Of a stretch of DNA of 11,296 nt, positions 3 through 11,296 are shown piece by piece. The DNA comes from Desulfobacteraceae bacterium UBA2230 (GTDB lineage Bacteria > Desulfobacterota > Desulfobacteria > Desulfobacterales > Desulfosarcinaceae), in the NCBI GenBank assembly GCA_002348005.1, contig DDYQ01000066.1:1-11296 (forward strand), in the 5' to 3' direction. The stretch's first letter is position 1, and each line of letters begins with the position of its first letter. The translations under genes and the position numbers were made by a program. The notes below the pieces were generated by a model. That model ran no database searches. It was not told the DNA's origin and saw only the letters and a list, made by a program, of their open reading frames with translations.

Positions 3-125
3 CGCAAGCTTTACGACACTGCCCAGACGCTGTTGATCAAAGAGCTTTCGACCGCCAAAAACTCGGACGAGAAAAGCGTGGTGACCGAGATCGAAGCACT
101 TTTTGCCGCTGGTGCTGAGGAGTAA
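3..125 (+). CDS. C-terminal end of an unrecognised protein (partial)
   Basis: An open frame enters from the left edge and gives about 40 residues before a TAA stop. The tail is charged and probably helical, ending in an acidic, alanine-rich stretch (EIEALFAAGAEE). No domain can be recognised in so short a piece and I assign no function. The frame is preferred because the other two + frames are stopped within this stretch and read as arginine- and cysteine-rich peptides. It ends 70 bases before the preferred rluD start on the same strand, so the two genes may be co-transcribed. Confidence 0.55.
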   Translation, partial: RKLYDTAQTLLIKELSTAKNSDEKSVVTEIEALFAAGAEE

Positions 126-195
126 TCGCTTCCGTTCGGCCGCCCGCTCATCGATCCAATCACAACCGAAAGCGCCCCCATTTCACATCGTAACT

Positions 196-1167
196 ATGCC
201 CTTCCAAGGCACGTGGACGTTCATTATCCCTCAAGACGAGGCGGGGATGCGGCTGGACATGGTGGTCGCCGCCCACATTGCGGAGGTGTCGCGATCGCAT
301 GCCGCACTTCTGATCCGTCAAGAAATCGTCCAAGTCGACGGGATGGTCCAAAAGCCAAGCTACAAAGTAAAAGCCGGACAAACGATCGAGGCTGCAATTC
401 CGGCGCCCGCCCCCGCAAAGGCAGCACCTGAAGCTATAGCCCTGGATATCGTTTTCGAAGATCATGACCTTGTCGTGGTCAACAAACCGGCCGGCTTGGT
501 CGTGCATCCATCGGCAGGACATGCCAGTGGCACTCTGGTCAATGCCCTGCTGCACCATTGTCCCAACCTTGCTGGAATCGGCGGCAGCCAACGTCCCGGG
601 ATCGTCCACCGCCTGGACAAGGATACGTCCGGACTGGTGGTCGTGGCCAAGAATGATCAAGCGCATCAACTGCTCTCCGGGGAATTCAAGGAACGCCGCA
701 TCCTTAAAACGTATCAGGCCATTGTTCATGGCGTTCCCGGGATGTCGAATGGAGCCATCGAGCTGCCGGTGGGCCGCCACCCGGTCGATCGCAAGCGGAT
801 GTCTGTCAGCAGTCCCAGGGGGCGAAATGCCGTGACCCTGTGGCGCGTAAACGAGCGTTTTCACGGGGCGGCCTGGCTGGAGTTTGACCTCAAGACCGGT
901 CGAACGCATCAAATCAGGGTTCATTGCCAATCCATCGGACATCCGATTGTTGGCGACCCGGTTTACGGATTCCCCCGCGCCCTGCGCCAACTGGCCCGGT
1001 CCGATCCGGCGCTTCACGCAATAGTCGGCGATATCGGGCGCCAGATGCTGCATGCCATGCGCCTCGGATTTACCCATCCCAGGAACGGTGAGCGAATGGT
1101 TTTCGAGTCCCCTTTACCAGAAGACATGCGGCAACTCATTCAAAGATTGAGACAACTGAAAGGGTGA
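196..1167 (+). CDS. rluD: 23S rRNA pseudouridine synthase, RluA/RluD family
   Basis: Cytoplasmic enzyme that isomerises uridines to pseudouridine. RluD of E. coli acts on the helix 69 loop of 23S rRNA (positions 1911, 1915 and 1917). The 323-residue product has an N-terminal S4 RNA-binding domain (about residues 14-80, with GMRLD and the QVDG turn). The RluA-type catalytic domain follows, with the family motif HRLDKDTSG; Asp141 is the predicted catalytic residue. The substrate-binding motif GRTHQIRVH lies at about 235-243. Length and order match the family. The frame is open upstream to a TTG at 103, but that extension would add 31 residues before the normal N-terminus and overlap the preceding gene. 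ATG 196 places the S4 domain correctly, although no clear ribosome binding site precedes it. RluD is favoured over RluA and RluC by the S4 domain and overall fit; the exact target uridines are inferred. It is convergent with the rnf operon and functionally unrelated to it. Confidence 0.92.
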   Translation: MPFQGTWTFIIPQDEAGMRLDMVVAAHIAEVSRSHAALLIRQEIVQVDGMVQKPSYKVKAGQTIEAAIPAPAPAKAAPEAIALDIVFEDHDLVVVNKPAGLVVHPSAGHASGTLVNALLHHCPNLAGIGGSQRPGIVHRLDKDTSGLVVVAKNDQAHQLLSGEFKERRILKTYQAIVHGVPGMSNGAIELPVGRHPVDRKRMSVSSPRGRNAVTLWRVNERFHGAAWLEFDLKTGRTHQIRVHCQSIGHPIVGDPVYGFPRALRQLARSDPALHAIVGDIGRQMLHAMRLGFTHPRNGERMVFESPLPEDMRQLIQRLRQLKG

Positions 1168-1275: not shown

Positions 1276-3357
1276 TCAAGCGCATTCTTTCTGAATGTCC
1301 GGATTGTAGCATATGCGGCAGCAATCGAGGCAGCGGCGGGATTCCTCGGCGGCATCCTTTTCGCTGATGACCTGGTCGACCTCCACCATGCTGTGAATAC
1401 GCTCCGGGACTTCGAGTTCCGGCATGGGGGTGCGCTTTTTTGACACGACGCCATCGACGCGCTCGAAGAGCGATTCGGGAATATGGCGCTTGCGCAGCGA
1501 GCGGGCGGAGCCTTCTACATTCTGGCCCGTCAGGAATTGATGGATCGAGCGGGCGGCGCGGCGTCCGCCGCCAATCGCCTCAACTACCAGGGACGGCCCG
1601 GTAGCCGAATCGCCGGCCGTAAACAGGTAGGGCAAGCTGGTTCGAAGGATTTCAGGGTCATTTTCAAACGTATTCCAGCGGGTCACTGCCGGTTTTTCCG
1701 GGTCCTTTTCCTTCCCGAGGAAGTCGAGTTCGGGCTGCTGGCCGATTGCAGAGATCACCATATCGACCGCTATCGTCTTCTCGGAACCTTCCACAGGCAC
1801 CGGACGACGGCGACCGCTTTTATCCGGTTCGCCCAATTTCATCGTGAGGTATTCCAGACCGGCTACACGGCCCTGTTCGTCTCCGACAACCTTTACGGGA
1901 GCGGCAAGAAACAAAAACTTTACCCCCTCGTGTTCGGCCGCCACGATTTCAACTTCATTGGCCGGCATCTCTTTGCGGGTCCGGCGGTAGACAATATAAA
2001 CTTCTTCAGCCCCAAGCCGGATCAGGGTGCGGACGCAGTCGATGGCGGAATTGCCGCCGCCGACCACCGCCGCCCGCCGTCCGACCGGGATTTTCTTGTC
2101 CGGAGCAGATGCCACGGTAGACAAGAATTCGATCCCTTTCCAGCAGCCCTTCAGCTCCTCGCCGTTCACCTGCAGGGCGTAATCCTTCCAGGCGCCGACG
2201 CCCAGGAAAATCGCATCATATCCTTCCTCGCGCAGCGATTGAATCGTAAAGTCACGACCTAACCGCTGATTGGAATGGGCTTCGATACCCATTTCCAGAA
2301 TGCCTTGGATTTCCCAATCCAACACCTTGTCGGGCAGGCGATATTCCGGTATTCCATAGCGGGTAATGCCGCCCAGCCTGGGCATGGCTTCGAAAATGGT
2401 CACCAGGTGTCCGAGACGGCGCAAAAAGTAAGCGCAGCTGAGACCGGCCGGTCCGCCGCCAACCACGGCCACCTTTTTGCCGCTATAGGGTGCACACGGG
2501 ATTGGCAGCCGCTGGCCGGAATTCATCTCCCAGTCGGCCACGAAGCGCTTGAGCTGATTGATCGAAACGGGCTCGTCGGCGATACCGCGACGGCAGAAGT
2601 TTTCACAAGGATGCGGACAGACCCGGCCGCAGCTCAGCAACAAGGGGTTACGTTCGCGGATCGTATGAACAGCGCCTGCGAAATCGCCCATCCGGATTTG
2701 ACGGATATATTGCGGGATATTGATTTCCGCGGGGCAGGTTTGGCGGCAGGGTGCCAGTGCATCGTCTTCCTCGTTGAAGTGCAGCAGGCGCTGACTCATG
2801 GTGCGCACCGTCAGGATGTGCTTCGGGCAGGCCTTTTCACACGCGCCGCAGCCCACGCACTTGCCCTCATCGACCACCGGGAAGCCTTCGGCTCCCATAT
2901 GAATCGCATCGAACTTGCAAGAGCGCACGCAATCGCCCATTCCCAGACAGCCCACCGAGCAGACGCGCCGTCCACCAAACATGGCGGACATAGCGGCGCA
3001 GGTTCTGGCGCCGTCGTAAAAATATTTATCGGCGGCGCGGTTTCCACCCAGGCATTCGTTCAGCGATCGCACCGGTTCGGCGCTGCCGGCATCCACGCCC
3101 ATGACGCCGGCAATATTCTTCGCCGATTCCATGCCGCCGACGATGCAGACACTCGGCGCGGCCTTGCCGGAAACCACGGCGGAGGCCGCCGCTGAACATC
3201 CGGCGTAACCGCAGCCCCCGCAATTGGCGCCCGCCATATAATATTCCACCTGAGAGATACGGGGATCTTCCCAGACGTAAAACACTTTGGAAGCTACGCT
3301 GAGCACGATTCCACAGGTGGCCCCGATTCCCAACATAACCAGAATTGCCTCTATCAC
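1276..3357 (-). CDS. rnfB: RnfB fused to a GltD/NfnB-like FAD-dependent NAD(P)H oxidoreductase module
   Basis: Iron-sulfur subunit of the Rnf complex, expected to accept electrons from ferredoxin on the cytoplasmic side; here it is 693 residues instead of the usual 200-350. The N-terminus is classical RnfB: a membrane helix at about 4-22, a 4Fe-4S site at Cys46, Cys49, Cys54 and Cys71, then two ferredoxin-type sites at Cys133/137/143/147 and Cys167/170/173/177. From about residue 200 a second protein is fused on. It starts with a region like the N-terminal Fe-S domain of GltD, NfnB and dihydropyrimidine dehydrogenase (Cys204, 208, 243, 247, 251, 255). An FAD-binding glycine motif follows (GGGPAG, 300-305), then a second Rossmann motif (GGGNSAID, 433-440). 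The arginine pair in YRRTRKEMP (457-465) resembles NADPH-type enzymes. The FAD-closing motif AGDSATGPS comes later. A last cysteine cluster (676, 679, 680, 683) sits near the C-terminus. The start is GTG. It is the last gene of the rnf operon, 140 bases after rnfA. RnfB identity is firm; cofactor preference of the fused part is inferred. Confidence 0.93.
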   Translation of the reverse strand: MIEAILVMLGIGATCGIVLSVASKVFYVWEDPRISQVEYYMAGANCGGCGYAGCSAAASAVVSGKAAPSVCIVGGMESAKNIAGVMGVDAGSAEPVRSLNECLGGNRAADKYFYDGARTCAAMSAMFGGRRVCSVGCLGMGDCVRSCKFDAIHMGAEGFPVVDEGKCVGCGACEKACPKHILTVRTMSQRLLHFNEEDDALAPCRQTCPAEINIPQYIRQIRMGDFAGAVHTIRERNPLLLSCGRVCPHPCENFCRRGIADEPVSINQLKRFVADWEMNSGQRLPIPCAPYSGKKVAVVGGGPAGLSCAYFLRRLGHLVTIFEAMPRLGGITRYGIPEYRLPDKVLDWEIQGILEMGIEAHSNQRLGRDFTIQSLREEGYDAIFLGVGAWKDYALQVNGEELKGCWKGIEFLSTVASAPDKKIPVGRRAAVVGGGNSAIDCVRTLIRLGAEEVYIVYRRTRKEMPANEVEIVAAEHEGVKFLFLAAPVKVVGDEQGRVAGLEYLTMKLGEPDKSGRRRPVPVEGSEKTIAVDMVISAIGQQPELDFLGKEKDPEKPAVTRWNTFENDPEILRTSLPYLFTAGDSATGPSLVVEAIGGGRRAARSIHQFLTGQNVEGSARSLRKRHIPESLFERVDGVVSKKRTPMPELEVPERIHSMVEVDQVISEKDAAEESRRCLDCCRICYNPDIQKECA

Positions 3358-3497
3358 AGGATCATCCTCCTTAAATGGATCATAAACGCGCTTGGCGGTC
3401 TGGCCAGCCTATCGTGGCGGTATGACAACGCCACAGGGAACAAGGTGCTCCGGAAGGTATAGGCGCGGACCAATGCCGCCGGCAGCGGAGGCCTGCG
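3358..3497 (-). other. 140-base rnfA-rnfB intergenic gap
   Basis: The only long gap within the rnf genes, which are elsewhere overlapping or at most about 30 bases apart. It holds the rnfB ribosome binding site and one short inverted repeat (GTGGCG at 3414-3419, CGCCAC at 3429-3434, 9-base loop). I see no convincing promoter hexamers and no coding potential. Confidence 0.5.
3366..3372 (-). promoter_or_regulatory. Strong ribosome binding site that fixes the GTG start of rnfB
   Basis: On the minus strand AAGGAGG lies 8 bases before the GTG at 3357. An ATG overlaps this spacer but is out of frame and stops after three codons, so GTG is the start. The ideal site suggests efficient independent translation initiation after the unusually long rnfA-rnfB gap. 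Confidence 0.8.
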
Positions 3498-4070
3498 CTA
3501 CACCATACCGCGAAACGCATAAAAACTCAGGGATATAATGCCGGCAGTGACCAGGGCGATGGACGTGTCTCTCAGCGGCCGCGGCACTCTTGCAAGCAGG
3601 ATACGTTCCCGTATACCCGCGAAGAGGATCAAGGCCAGTCCAAAACCGGCTGCGTAGGCGAAGGACGTCAGCAATCCCTGAATGAATGTCAGCTCCTTGT
3701 CGATGTTCAGAACGCAGGCTCCCATAACGGCGCAGTTGGTGGTGATCAAGGGTAGGAAAATGCCAAGTCCGGCGTAAAGCGCCGGAATGCTCTTCTTCAA
3801 AAACATTTCCACAAACTGCACCAGTGCCGCGATGACCAGAATAAATGCGATGGTCCTCAGGTATTCGAGCTTAAACGGCACAAGGAGCAAATGATAGATA
3901 ATCCAGGTAATCACCCCCGCCAGCACCAGTACGAATATAACCGCCATGGCCATGCCGAGCGCGGTTTCCATCTTTTTGGAAGTGCCGAGAAAAGGGCAAT
4001 TCCCTAGAAACTGGGCCAGGAGAATATTGTTCACAAAGATTCCAGCGATGATCAGTTCAAAATATTCCAT
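3498..4070 (-). CDS. rnfA: Rnf complex membrane subunit RnfA
   Basis: Integral membrane subunit of the ion-pumping ferredoxin-oxidising Rnf complex, homologous to NqrE. At 190 residues it has the normal length. About six hydrophobic segments are visible. Both half-membrane cysteine motifs are intact: Cys25 in GNCPFLG and Cys113 in TTNCAVMG. In Rnf and Nqr structures these cysteines, with the equivalent pair of RnfE, hold a 2Fe-2S cluster in the middle of the membrane that passes electrons between the cytoplasmic and periplasmic halves. The ATG start is preceded by GGGAG about 7 bases upstream. The gene begins 15 bases after rnfE, so the two inverted-topology partners are made together. Nothing in the sequence is unusual for the family. 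Confidence 0.95.
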   Translation of the reverse strand: MEYFELIIAGIFVNNILLAQFLGNCPFLGTSKKMETALGMAMAVIFVLVLAGVITWIIYHLLLVPFKLEYLRTIAFILVIAALVQFVEMFLKKSIPALYAGLGIFLPLITTNCAVMGACVLNIDKELTFIQGLLTSFAYAAGFGLALILFAGIRERILLARVPRPLRDTSIALVTAGIISLSFYAFRGMV

Positions 4071-4085
4071 CAGCGATCTCCCGGC

Positions 4086-4715
4086 CTATTTGCTTGGGAT
4101 CAGATTCATGAGACACAGCATCAAACCGAGGGCAATAAACGCACCCGGCGCCTGCACCATAAACCCGAAGGGTTCAAAGCTCGGAAACATTTGCGTCAGA
4201 TCGAGCACCGGCCCGTCGAAAAAGGGCGCTTTCCATATGGTGATCGTCCCTTTGCCTAAGATTTCGCGAACCGCACCGAGGGAGGCTAGCGAAAGCGTGA
4301 ACCCGATGCCGATCCCCAGGCCGTCGGCCATGGAGCGCACAAGACCGTTTTTATAGGCGAAAGCTTCGGCCCGGCCCAGAACGATACAGTTCACAACGAT
4401 CAGCGGGATAAAGACCCCCAGGGTCAGGTAAAGATCATAACTGTAGGCCTTCATGAACTGTTCGACCACGATGACGAAGGTGGCAATGATGACGATGAAA
4501 CAAGCGATGCGCACTTTGGGCGGAATGACTTTGCGCAGTGCGGAAACCAGTATGTTTGAACACAACAGGACGAAGGTCGTCGCCAACCCCATCCCGATAC
4601 CGTTTTCGACAGAAGTTGATACACCCAGCGCCGGACATAAGCCCAGAACCAGGCGAAACGGCGGAACTTCAGCCCATAGGCCTTTGGTGAAATCCTGAGC
4701 TATGGATTTGGCCAT
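4086..4715 (-). CDS. rnfE: Rnf complex membrane subunit RnfE
   Basis: Integral membrane partner of RnfA, homologous to NqrD. The 209-residue protein has about six hydrophobic segments. The paired motifs GLCPALG (Cys27) and VNCIVLGRAEAFA (Cys110) supply the second half of the shared 2Fe-2S site. A GTG two codons upstream (4721) keeps the frame open. ATG 4715 is preferred because AGAGGAG lies 7 bases before it, whereas that site would almost touch the GTG. The gene is 32 bases after rnfG and 15 before rnfA, in the common C-D-G-E-A-B order. Confidence 0.94.
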   Translation of the reverse strand: MAKSIAQDFTKGLWAEVPPFRLVLGLCPALGVSTSVENGIGMGLATTFVLLCSNILVSALRKVIPPKVRIACFIVIIATFVIVVEQFMKAYSYDLYLTLGVFIPLIVVNCIVLGRAEAFAYKNGLVRSMADGLGIGIGFTLSLASLGAVREILGKGTITIWKAPFFDGPVLDLTQMFPSFEPFGFMVQAPGAFIALGLMLCLMNLIPSK

Positions 4716-4747
4716 AAACACACTCCTCTTTCGCTTTTGGGCATCAT

Positions 4748-5338
4748 TTATTTCGAGCCTTGAAGTTTTTGCAGCAACTGGGGTTTGATTTCCCTGTAAG
4801 TGGCGATCACCTGCCCGGCCGCAGCGGCAACAGCCCGCGAGGTAATGGTGGCGCCACTGAGCGCATTGATTTCACCGCCGTCACCGGTCACCTTGAAGTT
4901 GCTGTTCACCGATTTGCCTTTAAACTGAGCGGCAAAGGCAGGATCGTCCTTGGCCCGCGAACCCAATCCCGCAGTCTCCGTATGCGTTGTCACGCGGACG
5001 CCGGTGACTTGTTCGGTATCGATATCAAGGGCCACGATCAGTCCGACCGGTCCGCCGTAGCCTTTGCCTTCAGATTCCATGGCCACGATTTTAGGCTTCC
5101 CGTCATACACGCCCATAAAGACCGTCTGTTCTTTATCACCCTGTTGAATTTTAAAACGGTCGGCGATCGGATCGTTGGCGGCGCCCTTGAGCAGATCGCG
5201 CACAGCGGGGCCCTTAACCAGTTCCATGATATTATTTTCCTGAATCGGCTTTAACTCGCGCTCAAGGTAGGATAAACCGCCGCCGGATACGATGCTCAAG
5301 AAGGTCAAAACCACAACCATTTTGATCATTTCACCCAT
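4748..5338 (-). CDS. rnfG: Rnf complex flavoprotein subunit RnfG
   Basis: Periplasmic, membrane-anchored subunit with a covalent FMN, homologous to NqrC; length 196 residues. A single N-terminal membrane helix spans about residues 5-22. The FMN-binding domain contains the conserved HTETAGLGS (119-127). The flavinylation motif SGATITS is at 161-167, with Thr164 the predicted phosphoester attachment site. Attachment is normally made by the flavin transferase ApbE, whose gene is not in this window. The ATG starts one base after the rnfD stop, so translation is probably coupled. As the periplasm-facing flavin, RnfG is the natural neighbour for the operon's multihaem cytochrome. No anomalies are seen. 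Confidence 0.95.
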   Translation of the reverse strand: MGEMIKMVVVLTFLSIVSGGGLSYLERELKPIQENNIMELVKGPAVRDLLKGAANDPIADRFKIQQGDKEQTVFMGVYDGKPKIVAMESEGKGYGGPVGLIVALDIDTEQVTGVRVTTHTETAGLGSRAKDDPAFAAQFKGKSVNSNFKVTGDGGEINALSGATITSRAVAAAAGQVIATYREIKPQLLQKLQGSK

Positions 5339-5339
5339 A

Positions 5340-6377
5340 TCACGCTACCTTTCCAATCGCCTTCGGCCTGATCTTGTCGATCAGCGGATTAATCAGATTG
5401 ATCAATAGAATTGCCAGGATGGTACCGTCCGGATAGATCCCGATGTTGCGGATCAACATGGTCAGGATTCCACCCAAGGCGCCATACATCAGCATTGGAA
5501 CCATGTTGACCGGCGACGAACTGTCGTCGGTAGCCAGAAAGATCGCCCCAATCAGGGTGTATCCGGTAAGCAGATGAAAGAGGGGCCCGGCATACCGGCT
5601 CGGATCGGCAGCATGAAACAGTGCTGCCGTTATGAATATTCCGAGCATGAACGAGACCGGGACTTCCCAACGCATGAAGCCGCGGAATGCAAGATAAATA
5701 CCGCCCAGGATCAAAGCCAACCCGCAGGTGGCGCCCAGGCCGCCGACCTGACGGCCTAAAAACAGATCCAGGGCCGCATAATTCTGCTCGGCCGCAGGGC
5801 CGAATGCCTTAACCGCAACCAAGGGAAAAAGGGTTGGGAAGTTGAATTCATAATTGACCAGACGGGCATCAAAATCGAAATAGAGAGGCCAGGATACCAT
5901 CAGGATGGCGCAGGCCAGTGCGGCCGGGTTAAACGGATTGGCCCCGATGCCGCCGAAAATCTGCTTGCCGATGACAATGGCCAGCAGTGTACCGGTTACG
6001 ACAAACCACCAGGGCACCGTGGCCGGCAACAGCATGGCCAGCAGCAGGCCGGTCAGAGCAGCATGGCCGTCCGCGACCGAAACTGACCGCTTGGTGGCCA
6101 GATTGATGAGCAATTCCCAGATGATGGCCGTCGCAACGGATAAGCTGATCACCGCCAGCGCGGGAACGCCGTAATATACAATGCCCATTAAAGCCGCCGG
6201 AAGCGCCGCGAAGAGCGTGTTGTAATAGCGTTCGGGGACCGCGCTGCCATTATGCCAGAAGGGTGCGTGGGAGACGATATACTTCCTGGGAACATCTGCT
6301 GCAGGCTTGTTGCTGGATACCGGGTTGTCCCCTGACGCCATGGCGAGCGGGACAGTGACAGTATTCGGGCTATTCAT
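5340..6377 (-). CDS. rnfD: Rnf complex membrane subunit RnfD, flavinylation motif not evident
   Basis: Polytopic subunit homologous to NqrB that forms the membrane core of the electron and ion path. The 345 residues show about nine or ten hydrophobic segments. Family landmarks are present: PERYYNTLFAALP near 48, the DGHAALTGLLLA motif at 103-114, and GGIGANPFNPAA at 142-153. LDLFLG is at 203-208, and IYPDGT lies in the last third. The first about 45 residues are hydrophilic and longer than usual. Typical RnfD carries a covalent FMN on a threonine in an S/T-G-A-T motif before the LFLG motif. Residues 180-202 here hold no such motif; the only similar tetrapeptide is LGAT (214-217) after it. The gene overlaps the end of rnfC by 8 bases, with GGAGG 6 bases before its ATG inside rnfC. 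Confidence 0.93.
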   Translation of the reverse strand: MNSPNTVTVPLAMASGDNPVSSNKPAADVPRKYIVSHAPFWHNGSAVPERYYNTLFAALPAALMGIVYYGVPALAVISLSVATAIIWELLINLATKRSVSVADGHAALTGLLLAMLLPATVPWWFVVTGTLLAIVIGKQIFGGIGANPFNPAALACAILMVSWPLYFDFDARLVNYEFNFPTLFPLVAVKAFGPAAEQNYAALDLFLGRQVGGLGATCGLALILGGIYLAFRGFMRWEVPVSFMLGIFITAALFHAADPSRYAGPLFHLLTGYTLIGAIFLATDDSSSPVNMVPMLMYGALGGILTMLIRNIGIYPDGTILAILLINLINPLIDKIRPKAIGKVA

Positions 6378-7644
6378 TCTCTTCCTCCGCCGGGGTCAAG
6401 CGTGCCAGTTCGAATTTAGCCAGTTTGATATATTGAAGTATGGGGATGCGCGCGGTGCAGACAAAGCTGCACAGGCCGCACTCCACGCAGGAGAATAAAT
6501 CGTACAGGTCCGCAGCGTCCTGGTACTGACCGGCCTCAAGGAAGCGCACCAGCATGTTGACCTGCACATTAGCGGGGCAGATGCGGACGCAATCGCCGCA
6601 ATTGATGCAGGGGTAGTCGCTGGAAAGAATGATGTCATTCCGTCCCTGCACCATAATGGCATCCGTATCGGGCAGGATCGGCTGCGATTCGGCATAGATC
6701 GCCGTGCCGGTCATGGGGCCGCCGAGCACCAGGCGGTCGCCGTTGTTCAAAGAGATGTTCAGACGGTTGAGGATATCGGCGACCGGGGTTCCGATCCGGG
6801 CGCTGATCAAGCGCTTGCGGCCTTGTTTGTCCAGAACGGTAACGATTTTATCGACCGGAAGGCGGCCTTCCAGCACGGCCCGCCCCATCGCCGCCACAGC
6901 TTCGGCGCGCACGAACCACACCCCCGCGCTCTCAAAAGACTGGCCCTGTTCCAGCCTGCGACCGAAATGGCGGCAGTAAATCATCAAAGGCTGGGCGCCG
7001 GGATAGGCGTTGGGCATGGCAATGACATCGGCCTCAAAGTGGCCGTCGAAATTTTGAAAGCTCTCGTTGGGAACTGCCAGAACGACCGTGTTGATGCCGG
7101 TGGCCTGCTTGAGCAATGCGATGCCGCGGTTTACGGCTTCGGTGTGATGCTTGAGAACGTACAGATTGGTTTCGACCAGCAGGTCGGTGTCGCCGCCGTA
7201 GATTATAATGGTCTTGATACTTTTTCTGAACCGAATGAAGCGCGAGAGAGCCGCCCCGCCCGGGCCGGTTTCGAAGTGGCGGGCCAAGGTTTCGATATCC
7301 GGTGTCTTTTCCGTGAAAGGTGCCCAATTCTCCTCGGGGGAGAGGCTGACGGTCACGGCCGTAAATTTGCGTCCGTAATCGCCGGTGTACGAGGCAAGAT
7401 CGACGATTGTTCCGGTAGCGGTGGAGAGGACGGCGCCTGACGGTTGATCGGCGTTCAGCAACTGTCCCGTTTGGACGGCGGTGCCGATTTTGAGCATGCC
7501 GGTCGGGGTCGATTCCGCCTCAAGGGGCTGCATCAGGATAACCTTGCCCGAAGCCGCTACCGGCAATGGTTCGGGGGAACCGGCGGTCATCAATTCGTAT
7601 CGGAAGCACGCTTTTTTTGAATCCAGCAAAGATTTGAGTGTCAT
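6370..7644 (-). CDS. rnfC: RnfC-like Fe-S subunit with degenerate NADH/FMN-binding motifs
   Basis: Peripheral cytoplasmic Rnf subunit, classically the NADH/NAD+ site, homologous to NqrA in its N-terminal part and related to Nqo1/HydB flavoproteins. At 424 residues it is close to normal length. A lipoyl-like N-terminal domain (about 28-85) and an SLBB-like segment near 280-320 (GTPVADILNRL, then GGPMTG) are recognisable. Two ferredoxin-type 4Fe-4S motifs are complete: Cys346/349/352/356 and Cys386/389/392/396. The middle is odd. The expected glycine-rich GxGGAGFPT motif is reduced to GPGGAALSRF at 127-136. The expected NGxECEP signature reads YGGDTDLL at 149-156, with neither Cys nor Pro. The N-terminal HPP motif of ordinary RnfC is also absent. 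I infer that FMN and NADH binding is lost or altered. The ATG at 7644 has only a weak AGG upstream. It lies 66 bases after the cytochrome gene and overlaps rnfD. Confidence 0.9.
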   Translation of the reverse strand: MTLKSLLDSKKACFRYELMTAGSPEPLPVAASGKVILMQPLEAESTPTGMLKIGTAVQTGQLLNADQPSGAVLSTATGTIVDLASYTGDYGRKFTAVTVSLSPEENWAPFTEKTPDIETLARHFETGPGGAALSRFIRFRKSIKTIIIYGGDTDLLVETNLYVLKHHTEAVNRGIALLKQATGINTVVLAVPNESFQNFDGHFEADVIAMPNAYPGAQPLMIYCRHFGRRLEQGQSFESAGVWFVRAEAVAAMGRAVLEGRLPVDKIVTVLDKQGRKRLISARIGTPVADILNRLNISLNNGDRLVLGGPMTGTAIYAESQPILPDTDAIMVQGRNDIILSSDYPCINCGDCVRICPANVQVNMLVRFLEAGQYQDAADLYDLFSCVECGLCSFVCTARIPILQYIKLAKFELARLTPAEEENE

Positions 7645-7710: not shown

Positions 7711-8157
7711 CTAAAGGACATGGCATTTTGAACAGTCCTCCGACCCTGAACGCGGTCCTTTCCCGAACTGATCGTGACATCCGATGCACTGCTGGTGAAA
7801 GGCATCGGAACGTTTGGGATATTCGGCCTCTTCTGCTTCTGAAGCGTCATGGCATTCAAGGCAATATTCGGGTACGACCCCTTCCTCCGGCTGGGCAGGG
7901 TGGCATTTACCGCAACCCACCGCGTCCGTGTCGGTATCCGCGGGATGATGGTGGCAATCCCCGCAGACAAGACCGAATCCCATGCTGGACGCATGGGTTT
8001 TGTGATCGAAGAGAACCTTGCCGGCATTGGAAGCGAACATCAGTCGAATAGGTTCTTCGGGCGCTTCTATCGGAAAGGCGGCGTAGCTCACAATCGCGAT
8101 CAGAAGCAAGTGGGCTGCCACAGTATACATGATGATGCGCTGCTTCTTCGAAGTCAT
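7711..8157 (-). CDS. Membrane-anchored pentahaem c-type cytochrome heading the rnf operon
   Basis: Probable periplasmic electron carrier tied to Rnf. The 148-residue product has a short basic N-terminus and one hydrophobic segment (about 8-28), read as an uncleaved anchor or signal sequence. Five CxxCH haem-attachment motifs follow, at Cys65, 82, 99, 124 and 142. Outside the motifs and the membrane segment there are exactly five histidines (52, 55, 70, 71, 121), enough for bis-His ligation of all five haems. The F-x-H-x-x-H stretch before the first motif and the CGDCHHH pattern resemble class III cytochromes (c3/c7), which usually bind three or four haems. The frame stays open to 8373, but ATG 8157 is chosen because it puts the membrane segment at the N-terminus and has AAGGA 8-9 bases upstream. 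Multihaem cytochrome genes beside rnf are known from Desulfovibrio and, as MmcA, from Methanosarcina acetivorans. The exact partner here is inferred from position. Confidence 0.88.
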   Translation of the reverse strand: MTSKKQRIIMYTVAAHLLLIAIVSYAAFPIEAPEEPIRLMFASNAGKVLFDHKTHASSMGFGLVCGDCHHHPADTDTDAVGCGKCHPAQPEEGVVPEYCLECHDASEAEEAEYPKRSDAFHQQCIGCHDQFGKGPRSGSEDCSKCHVL

Positions 8158-8583: not shown

Positions 8584-8588
8584 ATGTT
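8561..8588 (+). promoter_or_regulatory. Candidate sigma-70 promoter of the MerR/B12 regulator
   Basis: A perfect TTGACA (8561-8566) is followed after 16 bases by TATGTT (8583-8588). The -10 overlaps the first possible ATG (8584). If this promoter is used, translation would start at ATG 8596 on a nearly leaderless message, or a different upstream promoter serves the longer form. Confidence 0.4.
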
Positions 8589-9540
8589 CAATTTTATGGA
8601 GGACAGGCCCATATATCCCATTCGCGTGGTGGCGCACCGTACCGGCCTTTCCGTGCATGTGATCCGTGCCTGGGAGCGTCGCTATGGGGCAGTAAAACCG
8701 CAACGAACGGGAACCCAGCGCAGGCTTTATGCCACCAGCGATATAAAGCGGCTTATGCTGCTGCGCAAAGCCGTCATGGACGGCAACAGCATCGCGCAGG
8801 TTGCCGCCCTGGATGATTCCTCTTTGCGGGAATTGACCGGCTATGAACCGCACGCCGGTCCCGTTTCGCAGCCCGATCCGGAGGCGTATGCCTCGAATGC
8901 GCAATTTCAACCATCCCGATTCGTCCAGCAGGCACTTGAGGCGCTGCAGGCGCTTGAGCCTGCGGCGCTGGAACAGGTCCTCGAACGCGCTGCGGTGACA
9001 CTATCCCGGCCCGTTCTGATTGAACGCATGATGCTGCCGCTGACCGAAAGAATTGGAACCCTGTGGGCCAGTGGCCAACTGAAAATCGTTCATGAACACG
9101 CCGCTTCGGCGGTTCTGCGGCACTTCCTTTGGAATATGATCAATGCGGTCGCCGCGCCTCCGGACGCGCCGGTGGCCATTGCCGCAACACTGGTGGGGCA
9201 ATGGCATGAACTGGGAACGCTGCTGGCACTGCTTGCGGCTGTCGATGCGGGCTGGCGCGGAATTTATTGCGGGCCCAATCTGCCACCTGAAGAAATCGTT
9301 TCGGCCGTGGAACAAAAGCGTGCCAGAGCCATACTCATGGGCATCGGTCAGCCAGTGGACAGTGCGCAACTCAGCCGTGATTTAAGACGCCTCGTGCGCA
9401 GCAAGCCTTCTTTTTGTACGCTGCTGGTCGGGGGTCCGGGTGCCGAAGCCGTCCAAACACTTTTCGATCGGTCCGAACTGATCACCGTCAGCCGTTTATT
9501 GGATATCAAGACGAAGTTGCAGGAGTTACTGATCGTCTGA
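8584..9540 (+). CDS. MerR-family regulator with B12-binding domain (CarH/LitR-like)
   Basis: Cytoplasmic transcription regulator of 318 residues. Residues 9-76 form a MerR-type winged helix (IRVVAHRTGLS, IRAWERRYG, RRLYATSDI). After a proline-rich linker comes a four-helix cobalamin-binding region with the complete W-x9-EH signature of CarH-type proteins (Trp161, Glu171-His172). A flavodoxin-like B12 domain follows with QWHELG at 206-211. In known proteins this is an E/D-x-H-x-x-G motif whose histidine ligates cobalt; His208 is kept but the acidic residue is Gln206. CarH and LitR use adenosylcobalamin to repress promoters and release them in light; other relatives sense only B12. The start is uncertain between ATG 8584 (weak AGGG just upstream) and ATG 8596. 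It is divergent from the cytochrome-rnf operon and so is a candidate regulator of it, though it could control itself or distant genes. The next gene is 81 bases downstream on the same strand. Confidence 0.85.
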   Translation: MFNFMEDRPIYPIRVVAHRTGLSVHVIRAWERRYGAVKPQRTGTQRRLYATSDIKRLMLLRKAVMDGNSIAQVAALDDSSLRELTGYEPHAGPVSQPDPEAYASNAQFQPSRFVQQALEALQALEPAALEQVLERAAVTLSRPVLIERMMLPLTERIGTLWASGQLKIVHEHAASAVLRHFLWNMINAVAAPPDAPVAIAATLVGQWHELGTLLALLAAVDAGWRGIYCGPNLPPEEIVSAVEQKRARAILMGIGQPVDSAQLSRDLRRLVRSKPSFCTLLVGGPGAEAVQTLFDRSELITVSRLLDIKTKLQELLIV

Positions 9541-9621: not shown

Positions 9622-10377
9622 ATGAACAAGAAAATGAGGTTGCGGTCAGCGCTACTGGCCGGCGGCTTGGGTATTTTTTTAAATGCCTGCACGCTGTTCA
9701 CGGGTCAGCAGTATCGTGATTTTTCGACTTTGACGCCGCTGGAACCGGATCATATTCTGGTTCTGGGCATCGTGGGCGGAATCGAACGCTGGAACGACGA
9801 CTCGCGCGGGGTGCCTCGGCTGGCCGCAAAATTGCGCACGCTGAACCTGCCGCGCGTAAAAGTGGAAACCGTCGAAAATCATCGTTTGGAACTGGCCATT
9901 GCCCTGATCATGAACGCCTTCGATCGAGACGGCGACGGGCGGCTGAGTATCGCTGAAGCGCACTCTTCGCAGTTGATCCTTTTCGGGCACAGTATGGGGG
10001 GTGCAGCGGTGGTGGCCCTGGCGGGTCAGCTGAACCGGATGGGGATACCCGTACAGCTGACCATTCAGGTCGACAGTTTCGGTCGAAGCGACGGCTGGAT
10101 TCCACCTAACGTGCGGCGCGCCGTCAATTTTTTCCAGCGCGACGGTCTTCTGGTTAAAGGGGAATCGACCATAGCGGCCATGGATGAGCGGGTTACCCGG
10201 ATCATCGGCAATTTCAAATTCGATTACACCGATAACCCGGTGGACATGTCCTCGCAGAAGTTTATCCGGCGTTTGTTCAATACCCCCCATGACCAGATGG
10301 CCGCCGATCCGCGTGTATGGAATCGGGTCGAGAATCTGATTGTATCGCAGTTCACGATTGCGTCTGCCGACGGATAA
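9622..10377 (+). CDS. Lipoprotein alpha/beta-hydrolase with an embedded EF-hand loop
   Basis: Predicted exported, lipid-anchored hydrolase of 251 residues; the substrate is unknown. The N-terminus is a lipoprotein signal: basic residues, a hydrophobic core, then a lipobox ending at Cys23 (LNAC). Thr follows the cysteine, so outer-membrane sorting is expected if the usual Lol rule holds. The nucleophile elbow GHSMGG is at 122-127 (Ser124). Asp150 and His222 are plausible remaining triad members by position. Just before the elbow, residues 101-112 form a complete EF-hand loop, with Asp101, Asp103, Asp105, Gly106, Ser109 and Glu112 all at calcium-ligand positions. Only one loop is evident, so calcium may stabilise the fold rather than signal. 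The ATG at 9622 has a purine-rich but weak ribosome site. It follows the regulator by 81 bases on the same strand, possibly one transcript. No link to Rnf function is visible. Confidence 0.75.
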   Translation: MNKKMRLRSALLAGGLGIFLNACTLFTGQQYRDFSTLTPLEPDHILVLGIVGGIERWNDDSRGVPRLAAKLRTLNLPRVKVETVENHRLELAIALIMNAFDRDGDGRLSIAEAHSSQLILFGHSMGGAAVVALAGQLNRMGIPVQLTIQVDSFGRSDGWIPPNVRRAVNFFQRDGLLVKGESTIAAMDERVTRIIGNFKFDYTDNPVDMSSQKFIRRLFNTPHDQMAADPRVWNRVENLIVSQFTIASADG

Positions 10378-10555: not shown

Positions 10556-11296
10556 TCATTGCTTGCGGCCGTAGGGAACTTTCAATTTGTTCATCCGGTT
10601 TCGCAAGGTATTGGGATGTACCCCAAGAAACGCAGCGGCGCCGTTCGGGCCGTTGATTTTGCCGTGTGTGATCCGCAGGGTTTTGGCGATGTGGCGCCGG
10701 ATCACTTCATCCAAAGGGAGCGGCTGCTCGCTGACGTTCAGCGGAATGGAGGAATGGTCCCGGTCCCGGTACTCCACCGATCCGTGTAAATAAAGGGGGC
10801 CCTGGCGTTGTTGAATCAGGGCTCTTTCCACTGCATTCTCGAGCTCACGCACATTGCCAGGCCAGGAGTGGCTGGCGAGCCGTTCGATTGCATCGGGCGC
10901 CAGGACGGGGAGGTCATGAATTCCGAGTTCAAGCGCCTTTTTGCGCAAAAAATGGTTCACCAGCAGCGGAATATCCATCTTGCGTTGGCGCAGCGGCGGA
11001 ATTTCAACCGGAAAAGCATTGATACGGAACCACAAATCTTCGCGAAATTCGCCTGCGCGAACCATTTGGAGCAGATCCCGGTGGGTGGCGGCGATCACAC
11101 GGATGTCCAGGCGGATAGGGGGGGATCCGCCAACCCGTTCAATTTCCTGGGTCTGCAGGACCCGCAGTAGTCGGATCTGAGCCCAGGAGGGGAGTTCGCC
11201 GATTTCATCCAGAAAGATGGTTCCCTTGTTCGCCCTCTCGAAACGGCCCCTTTTCTGTTCGATGGCACCCGTGAAAGCGCCTTTTTCATGACCGAA
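10556..11296 (-). CDS. Sigma-54-dependent transcriptional activator, C-terminal part (partial)
   Basis: The 246 residues visible are the end of an NtrC-type enhancer-binding protein; the N-terminal sensor domain and Walker A lie outside the window. The sigma-54 contact loop GAFTGA is at residues 6-11 of this fragment, and Walker B ([11 protein letters not shown]) is at 25-35. IAATHRDL is followed by the [20 protein letters not shown] segment characteristic of the AAA+ core, and [11 protein letters not shown] is intact. The last about 50 residues are a Fis-type helix-turn-helix ending in [15 protein letters not shown]. The frame stays open through the right edge, so the internal GTG at 11098 is not the start. 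It faces the lipoprotein gene tail to tail. What signal it senses and what it activates cannot be judged from this part. Confidence 0.93.

Follow-up and report, generated by a model that had tools for sequence, protein, structure and literature searches.

Organization of the rnf operon

We analyzed a stretch of 11,296 nucleotides (the window) from Desulfobacteraceae bacterium UBA2230 (assembly GCA_002348005.1, contig DDYQ01000066.1), which carries an rnf operon on its minus strand. The six rnf genes follow one another in the order C-D-G-E-A-B (7644-1276), and the canonical subunit set RnfABCDGE is complete. RnfC (424 amino acids, 6370..7644) matched TIGR01945 under its cut-off and had Fer4-type Pfam domains, and RnfD (345 amino acids, 5340..6377) matched PF03116 and TIGR01946. 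RnfG (196 amino acids, 4748..5338) was above the cut-off of NF045876 (RnfG_DVU2794), while RnfE (211 amino acids, 4086..4721) and RnfA (190 amino acids, 3498..4070) both had NCBIfam matches. The last gene has a GTG start and encodes an RnfB of 693 amino acids that is fused to an NfnB/GltD-like flavoprotein (1276..3357). The first gene of the operon, with its ATG at 8157, encodes a c3-like cytochrome with five CxxCH motifs, an N-terminal hydrophobic segment and a Class III cytochrome c Pfam match (7711..8157, minus strand). Only 66 bases lie between its end and rnfC. Two features of this operon go beyond the first-pass annotation of the window, namely this cytochrome gene and an RnfD without the threonine that covalently binds flavin mononucleotide (FMN).

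In the fused protein, residues 1-190 (2788..3357, minus strand) are the RnfB part, which has cluster cysteines of the RnfB type and a membrane anchor. Residues 199-693 (1279..2763, minus strand) are an NfnB-like module that comprises Fer4_20 and the Rossmann domains for flavin adenine dinucleotide (FAD) and NAD(P), whose motifs occupy residues 300-305 and 433-438, respectively. The C-terminal RCLDC of the module aligned to the N-terminal RCLQC of NfnL, which indicates a permuted order. Its nearest solved relatives are subunits of the bifurcating NfnABC and StnABC. The AlphaFold model of the fused protein was weak (mean predicted local distance difference test score 59), and the kinship of the module is also supported by sequence. 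Among the open reading frames (ORFs) scanned in the window we found no NfnA-like partner (FAD, 2Fe-2S), which could lie elsewhere in the genome.

Survey of rnf loci

We compared loci from two sources. A scan with the RnfC variant of the window gave 80 loci (L001-L080), and 100 regions were hand-picked from the rnfC matches listed when 395 genomes of the phylum were searched for the rnfC family. The loci of the RnfC-variant query cannot reveal a fused RnfB beside a canonical RnfC, whereas the phylum sample can. Short loci (L081-L118) and a duplicate (L131) were excluded; the set may contain other duplicates, and the phylum search may not include Desulfovibrio. The 180 loci, including the window, contained 172 rnfC ORFs with an adjoining rnfD. 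RnfB was fused in 74 of them (the window, 51 loci of the RnfC-variant query and 22 of the phylum sample) and unfused in 55 (41 with canonical and 14 with variant RnfC). The other 43 loci (42 variant, one canonical) had no RnfB nearby and stand outside the fused and unfused counts. Thus, the 42 canonical RnfC loci had an unfused RnfB in 41 cases, and no RnfB was found for one.

The fusion itself proved to be well conserved. Its origin through misassembly is refuted by the 74 operon-linked fused loci, three of which have a broken or cut RnfB frame. All 74 retain 14 RnfB cysteines, from C46 to C177, and the FAD-motif glycines 300, 302 and 305; the NADP-site arginines R458 and R459 are present in 69 and 64 of them, respectively. 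From these motifs, cluster ligation by the fused RnfB and a preference for NADP(H) are plausible. The gain of a complete GltD/NfnB-like module, as claimed in the first-pass annotation, is therefore confirmed by residues 199-693, their two nucleotide motifs and their conservation among homologues. Within the length window searched, 1412 proteins matched the RnfB part. Among the matches listed, an RnfB-driven search of the 395 genomes gave at least 59 RnfB frames that reach 600 amino acids or more, spread over 43 genomes, which likewise speaks against misassembly.

A second class of RnfB-NfnB fusions was about 50 percent identical to that of the window across the RnfB part. In three loci, members of this class adjoin a NuoF/HydB-like gene outside an rnf operon (L243 7944-10049, L245 7965-10076 and L246 3617-5725, minus strand). 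At L243 and L245 this gene was called by NCBIfam NuoF models, at L246 only by our own RnfC model. These fusions are possibly membrane-anchored NfnABC-like complexes or alternative input subunits. Eight cytochrome-rnfCDGEA operons had no adjoining rnfB (L004, L007, L014, L048, L062, L064, L143 and L146). A fused RnfB was found elsewhere in the genome for seven of these and no match was found in the genome of L146; for L004, L007, L014 and L064 it was only of the roughly 50 percent class. At L135 (2583-4942, minus strand) and L149 (12025-14594), rnfCDGEA is directly followed by nfnA-like and nfnB-like genes, and a fused RnfB lies elsewhere in the genome. The nfnA-like gene of L135 was checked by family scan.

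Lost and retained sites in RnfC

Against TIGR01945 the window RnfC scored 172 bits, where the cut-off is 246. Pfam (E ≤ 0.001) gave Fer4-type domains only, with no NADH-oxidoreductase or SLBB domain. Both GxGGAGFPT and NGxECEP are absent. The stretch that matches the canonical GxGGAxFPT loop (residues about 124-138; 7231..7275, minus strand) reads T-G-P-G-G-A-A-L-S, and NGxECEP is replaced by GGDTDLL (residues 150-156; 7177..7197, minus strand) in the context Y-G-G-D-T-D-L-L, where two acidic residues, D152 and D154, remain. All eight cluster cysteines of the two 4Fe-4S motifs are kept, both in the window and in 74/74 fused operons. The earlier observation that RnfC lacks FMN/NADH signatures and keeps its Fe-S clusters was therefore correct, and the loss is conserved.

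A total of 1489 proteins matched the window RnfC (7998 candidates scored). A decaying rnfC gene is ruled out by the mean column identity of 69 percent among 35 relatives and by the eight cysteines of the fused operons. The nearest homologues suggested GGDTDLL as a universal replacement, but in the wider survey only the acidic pair, mostly D-x-D, was general in fused operons. The predicted model of RnfC served for the fold only, which is kept (mean confidence 71.8, with residues 340-406 below 50); its Fe-S part is of low confidence. An RnfC labelled Desulfonatronum (P0279) also lacks the loop and reads NALDIEP.

The first-pass annotation named a strong correlation between fusion and motif loss as support for its view, and the survey shows such a correlation. 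The loop was missing from all 74 fused operons and present in all 41 canonical ones that have an RnfB in the vicinity, which is in no case fused. An NGxECEP-like pattern occurred in one fused operon (L166, NGIDAEP). The phylum sample contains eight fused operons (L166-L172 and L174) whose RnfC was above the TIGR01945 cut-off, at 270-321 bits, and yet lacks the loop. Among the matches listed in the 395 genomes, 23 fused RnfB had an RnfC within 10 kb, which scored 173-321 bits; none was canonical-scoring (440 bits or more). Conversely, 60 canonical-scoring RnfC among these matches had an RnfB within 10 kb, and it was never a fused one, so the case named beforehand as refuting, a fused RnfB with a canonical RnfC, was not seen. 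Some genomes carry both a canonical and a variant Rnf, such as G165 (contig C1, 3.10 and 3.12 Mb; L176 and L134) and G001 (6.13 and 2.51 Mb; L198 and L011). In G165 the two rnfC genes are about 17 kb apart, as is described for Desulfococcus multivorans (PMC5109826).

Lost and retained sites in the other subunits

In Acetobacterium woodii RnfD, T156 is described as holding FMN, and N123 and D249 as holding riboflavin (PMC11889175). We aligned the window RnfD to this protein. N123 and D249 correspond to N150 and D284, and T156 corresponds to F184 in EFNFPTLFPL (residues 177-186; 5820..5849, minus strand). The window RnfD is thus without the covalent-FMN threonine of canonical Rnf. Alanine-threonine (A-T) at this site was found in 41/41 canonical, 6/14 unfused-variant and 0/74 fused operons. 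Four fused RnfD retain a threonine there in another context, and three pattern matches in fused RnfD fall elsewhere in the sequence. In the literature searched, which left most subscription literature aside, we found no report of the loss of the RnfD FMN motif in fused operons.

The riboflavin asparagine of RnfD is kept in 62 of the 74 fused operons. At the position of the aspartate, D284 in the window, fused operons have E in 60 cases and D in 14, and canonical operons have D in 41/41.

RnfG keeps its FMN-attachment motif SGATITS (residues 161-167), and the SGAT threonine is present in 74/74 fused operons. So are C25 and C113 of RnfA and C29 and C112 of RnfE (aligned-part numbering), which are taken as the RnfA/E cluster ligands. 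In the covalent-FMN threonine of RnfG and in these cysteines the window agrees with canonical Rnf.

Cytochrome genes upstream of rnfC

We counted a cytochrome when the 4 kb upstream of rnfC held an ORF on the same strand with three or more CxxCH motifs. Such an ORF was found in 61/74 fused operons, 5/14 unfused-variant operons and 0/37 canonical operons with room to look; one canonical locus had an upstream ORF with two CxxCH motifs. Among the 61 cytochromes of fused operons, 42 carry five CxxCH motifs. By this rule, 13 fused and nine unfused-variant loci had no cytochrome, including one of each without room to look, which weakens the cytochrome as the sole explanation of the RnfC loss. The frequency depended on the source of the loci. 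A cytochrome was present in 51/51 fused loci of the RnfC-variant query (and in the window), but in only 9/22 of the phylum sample, to which all 13 cytochrome-less fused loci belong. In two loci of the phylum sample, L137 and L141, additional to these nine, a 4-haem frame overlaps rnfC.

Phylogeny of the operons

A tree of RnfE+RnfA was made by a quick method from 107 of the 159 operons that have both proteins. One side of a branch with a Shimodaira-Hasegawa-like approximate likelihood ratio test support of 100 held 67 of the 107 rows, including all 53 fused operons, five unfused-variant operons and nine without RnfB nearby. On this tree, the loss in RnfD requires one change, the loss in RnfC two and the fusion three. 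An independent-pairs sign test gave p = 1, with too few independent pairs. The perfect association between fusion and loss is thus roughly one historical event, and the tree leaves the order of fusion and losses undecided. The unfused operons of the fused clade have also lost the RnfC loop and the RnfD motif and have kept N..[DE].EP. In six more unfused operons (with an NxTEFEP-like RnfC) the loop is absent and the RnfD motif is kept.

The first-pass annotation interpreted the locus as a pyridine-nucleotide site moved from RnfC to RnfB. Co-occurrence without exception in the loci examined and the plausible entry of NADP(H), judged by motif, speak for this view. However, the association is close to one clade, which also holds loop-less unfused operons; therefore it is an association, not a demonstrated swap. 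As the covalent-FMN site of RnfD is also lost, the NAD-output limb looks abandoned, not relocated.

Comparison with known systems

The fused RnfB and the reduced RnfC have already been published. The Tol2-type Rnf (Rnf2) of Desulfobacula toluolica Tol2 and D. multivorans is described as having an RnfB of about 700 amino acids with NAD sites, an RnfC without NADH or SLBB domains and, in the cluster of D. multivorans, a cytochrome gene (PMC5109826). The window operon, with its RnfB of 693 amino acids and NAD(P) site, its RnfC without NADH or SLBB domains and its cytochrome gene, is a further Tol2-type Rnf, most likely from a sulfate reducer of the Desulfobacterales. In 2016 the mode of action of this type was said to await "experimental verification" (PMC5109826). 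The Rnf section of that account mentions neither an RnfD flavin site nor replacement motifs nor a tree.

A connection of NAD(P)H and ferredoxin with the cytochrome c pool through the Rnf of sulfate reducers was hypothesized earlier (PMC4287179); to this we add the evidence from RnfD and RnfC and the one-way exit proposed below. The Rnf of Desulfovibrio, as described for D. gigas (PMC4287179) and D. alaskensis G20 (PMC4841214, PMC4215793), resembles the window in having rnfCDGEABF with a multihaem cytochrome gene; the relevant sections of these papers do not mention a flavoprotein fusion. The Rnf of Methanosarcina acetivorans, which is described as not using NAD(P) and whose RnfG is modelled as the donor to cytochrome c, also has a co-encoded multihaem cytochrome and RnfG as the proposed exit; again, the section concerned mentions no flavoprotein fusion (PMC4023990).

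With the canonical Rnf of A. woodii, Clostridium tetanomorphum and Azotobacter vinelandii, the window shares the six subunits and the features of RnfB, RnfA/E and RnfG, as well as, with A. woodii, the gene order C-D-G-E-A-B. It differs in lacking the NADH loop of RnfC and the covalent-FMN motif of RnfD, in the cytochrome of the operon and in the NfnB module, which is placed after the first ferredoxin segments of RnfB. The Na+-NQR is alike in idea, as NAD(P)H would enter through a flavoprotein at the RnfB position and NqrA, the homologue of RnfC, lost its cofactors. However, NqrF (2Fe-2S, FAD and NADH), whose place is taken in the window by RnfB with the NfnB module, is an unrelated flavoprotein; NqrA is without clusters whereas the window RnfC keeps its cysteines, and NqrB keeps its covalent FMN. 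Two-subunit NQR/RNF-like systems, as described in PMC8238504 and PMC11334425, share with the window an RnfD-like subunit without a flavinylation site, and have been proposed to move electrons in one direction only, from NAD(P)H outwards. They differ in carrying the NAD domain on the RnfD-like subunit and in occurring mainly in Actinobacteria and candidate phyla. Compared with NfnB, NfnABC and StnC, the module of the window has the same fold, FAD and NADP motifs and cluster cysteines, and shares the permuted order with NfnABC, but it is fused to a membrane-anchored RnfB and has no NfnA or NuoF-like partner in the window.

Possible routes of electrons

At the sequence level, the entry limb of this Rnf (the sites of RnfB, RnfA/E and RnfG) is kept and enlarged, while the exit limb to NAD has lost the FMN threonine of RnfD and the loop of RnfC. 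With the entry limb complete and the limb from RnfD through RnfC to NAD altered at two places, we favor an exit from RnfG to a cytochrome. Our reading, which is tentative and may well prove wrong, is that NADPH and ferredoxin enter at RnfB and that electrons leave from RnfG to cytochrome c, rather than by RnfD and RnfC to NAD. RnfB would be reduced both by ferredoxin and by NADPH, the latter by way of the FAD and clusters of the fused module. The electrons would then cross RnfA/E, a step coupled to ion pumping, and reach the FMN of RnfG on the periplasmic side. In the window, the five-haem cytochrome encoded in the operon would hand them on to the cytochrome c3 pool of the periplasm. In reverse, an ion gradient could drive electrons from the cytochrome to NADP+ or ferredoxin. 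The fusion would thus open an NADPH entry in an Rnf that has ceased to supply NAD. For A. woodii, RnfA/E is described as the site of the pump and RnfD as a proposed carrier of electrons but not of Na+ (PMC11889175); thus, pumping could survive the change in RnfD.

Several points weigh against an RnfG-to-cytochrome exit. The window RnfD retains both riboflavin ligands, N150 and D284. In addition, the outer FMN of two-subunit NQR/RNF-like complexes is proposed to sample the membrane flavin site, so the loss of the RnfD threonine need not break the path (PMC11334425). As all eight cluster cysteines are kept in the fused operons, RnfC probably still carries electrons. A cytochrome-linked Rnf need not lose so much of RnfC, since the RnfC of M. 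acetivorans, used as a control, was above the TIGR01945 cut-off. Position C112 of RnfE is A in 9/41 canonical operons, and its role as a ligand is therefore unsettled by conservation. The cytochrome link, tight in the vicinity of the window, loosens across the wider fused clade and is weaker in the phylum sample, the less biased of the two. A mutant of D. alaskensis G20 in dhcA, which encodes the decahaem cytochrome of its rnfCDGEABF, is described as having no Rnf-like phenotype (PMC4215793). Finally, a single clade provides no independent replication of the association. Attempts to show a ferredoxin:NAD+-coupled gradient in G20 membrane vesicles are reported to have failed (PMC4841214), which fits a cytochrome exit and proves little.

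The U-shaped path might instead be intact, with the clusters of RnfC delivering to the FAD of the RnfB-fused module; the complex would then act as a ferredoxin:NADP+ oxidoreductase. Of the alternatives, this reading comes nearest to the swap of the first-pass annotation, except that the site would lie at the exit end. The eight RnfC cysteines of 74/74 fused operons and the two riboflavin ligands of the window RnfD would be explained by it. We consider it rather unlikely, since the RnfD FMN motif, the link between RnfG and riboflavin, is missing in all 74 fused operons and the carriers of RnfB and RnfC in C. tetanomorphum are described as at least 25 Å apart (PMC9588780). Moreover, a module joined to the clusters of RnfB would probably short-circuit ferredoxin to NADP+ without pumping.

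It is also doubtful that the clusters of RnfC serve a cytoplasmic protein acceptor (e.g. ferredoxin, flavodoxin or a DsrC-type partner) and that the cytochrome is incidental. The conserved RnfC cysteines would have a use in this case. Against it stand the loss of the RnfD FMN motif in fused operons and the occurrence of an upstream cytochrome in 61/74 fused compared with 0/37 canonical operons.

A bifurcating input is improbable. In this case, much as Nfn does, the NfnB-like FAD would split the electrons of NADPH between the clusters of RnfB, which lead to RnfA/E, and a second acceptor, be it the clusters of RnfC or something else. The module does resemble bifurcating subunits, but FMN signatures are missing from RnfC, the window encodes no subunit for a second acceptor that is NfnA-like or FMN-bearing, and a bifurcating flavin is undiagnosable from sequence. 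A half-circuit, in which the low-potential electron of NADPH goes through the RnfA/E pump and RnfG to cytochrome c3 and the other to the RnfC clusters, would, if true, explain why these clusters are kept despite the losses of the RnfC loop and the RnfD motif, and seems slightly less probable again.

Neighboring genes

Divergent from the rnf operon lies a gene for a MerR-type regulator with B12-binding domains (8584-9540, plus strand). It is followed by an ORF without an NCBIfam match (9622-10377, plus strand), in which an EF-hand-like DRDGDGRLS and a lipase-like GHSMGG stretch were seen by eye, and by a sigma-54 activator-type protein that continues past the end of the window (10556-11296, minus strand). 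On the other side, an RNA pseudouridine synthase-like gene (103-1167, plus strand) is convergent with rnfB.

Implications

The RnfD FMN site and the RnfC loop are lost together, while the entry limb is intact and a cytochrome is frequent; this offers a testable answer to the question of how the Tol2-type Rnf works. How electrons from NAD(P)H reach sulfate reduction is described as a long-standing mystery for Desulfovibrio, with Hdr/flox and Nfn as the answers offered (PMC4215793). If the proposed RnfG-to-cytochrome exit is true, these operons would encode an ion pump that connects cytoplasmic NADPH and ferredoxin to the periplasmic cytochrome pool, and it would call for caution in naming such operons ferredoxin:NAD+ oxidoreductase from gene names alone.

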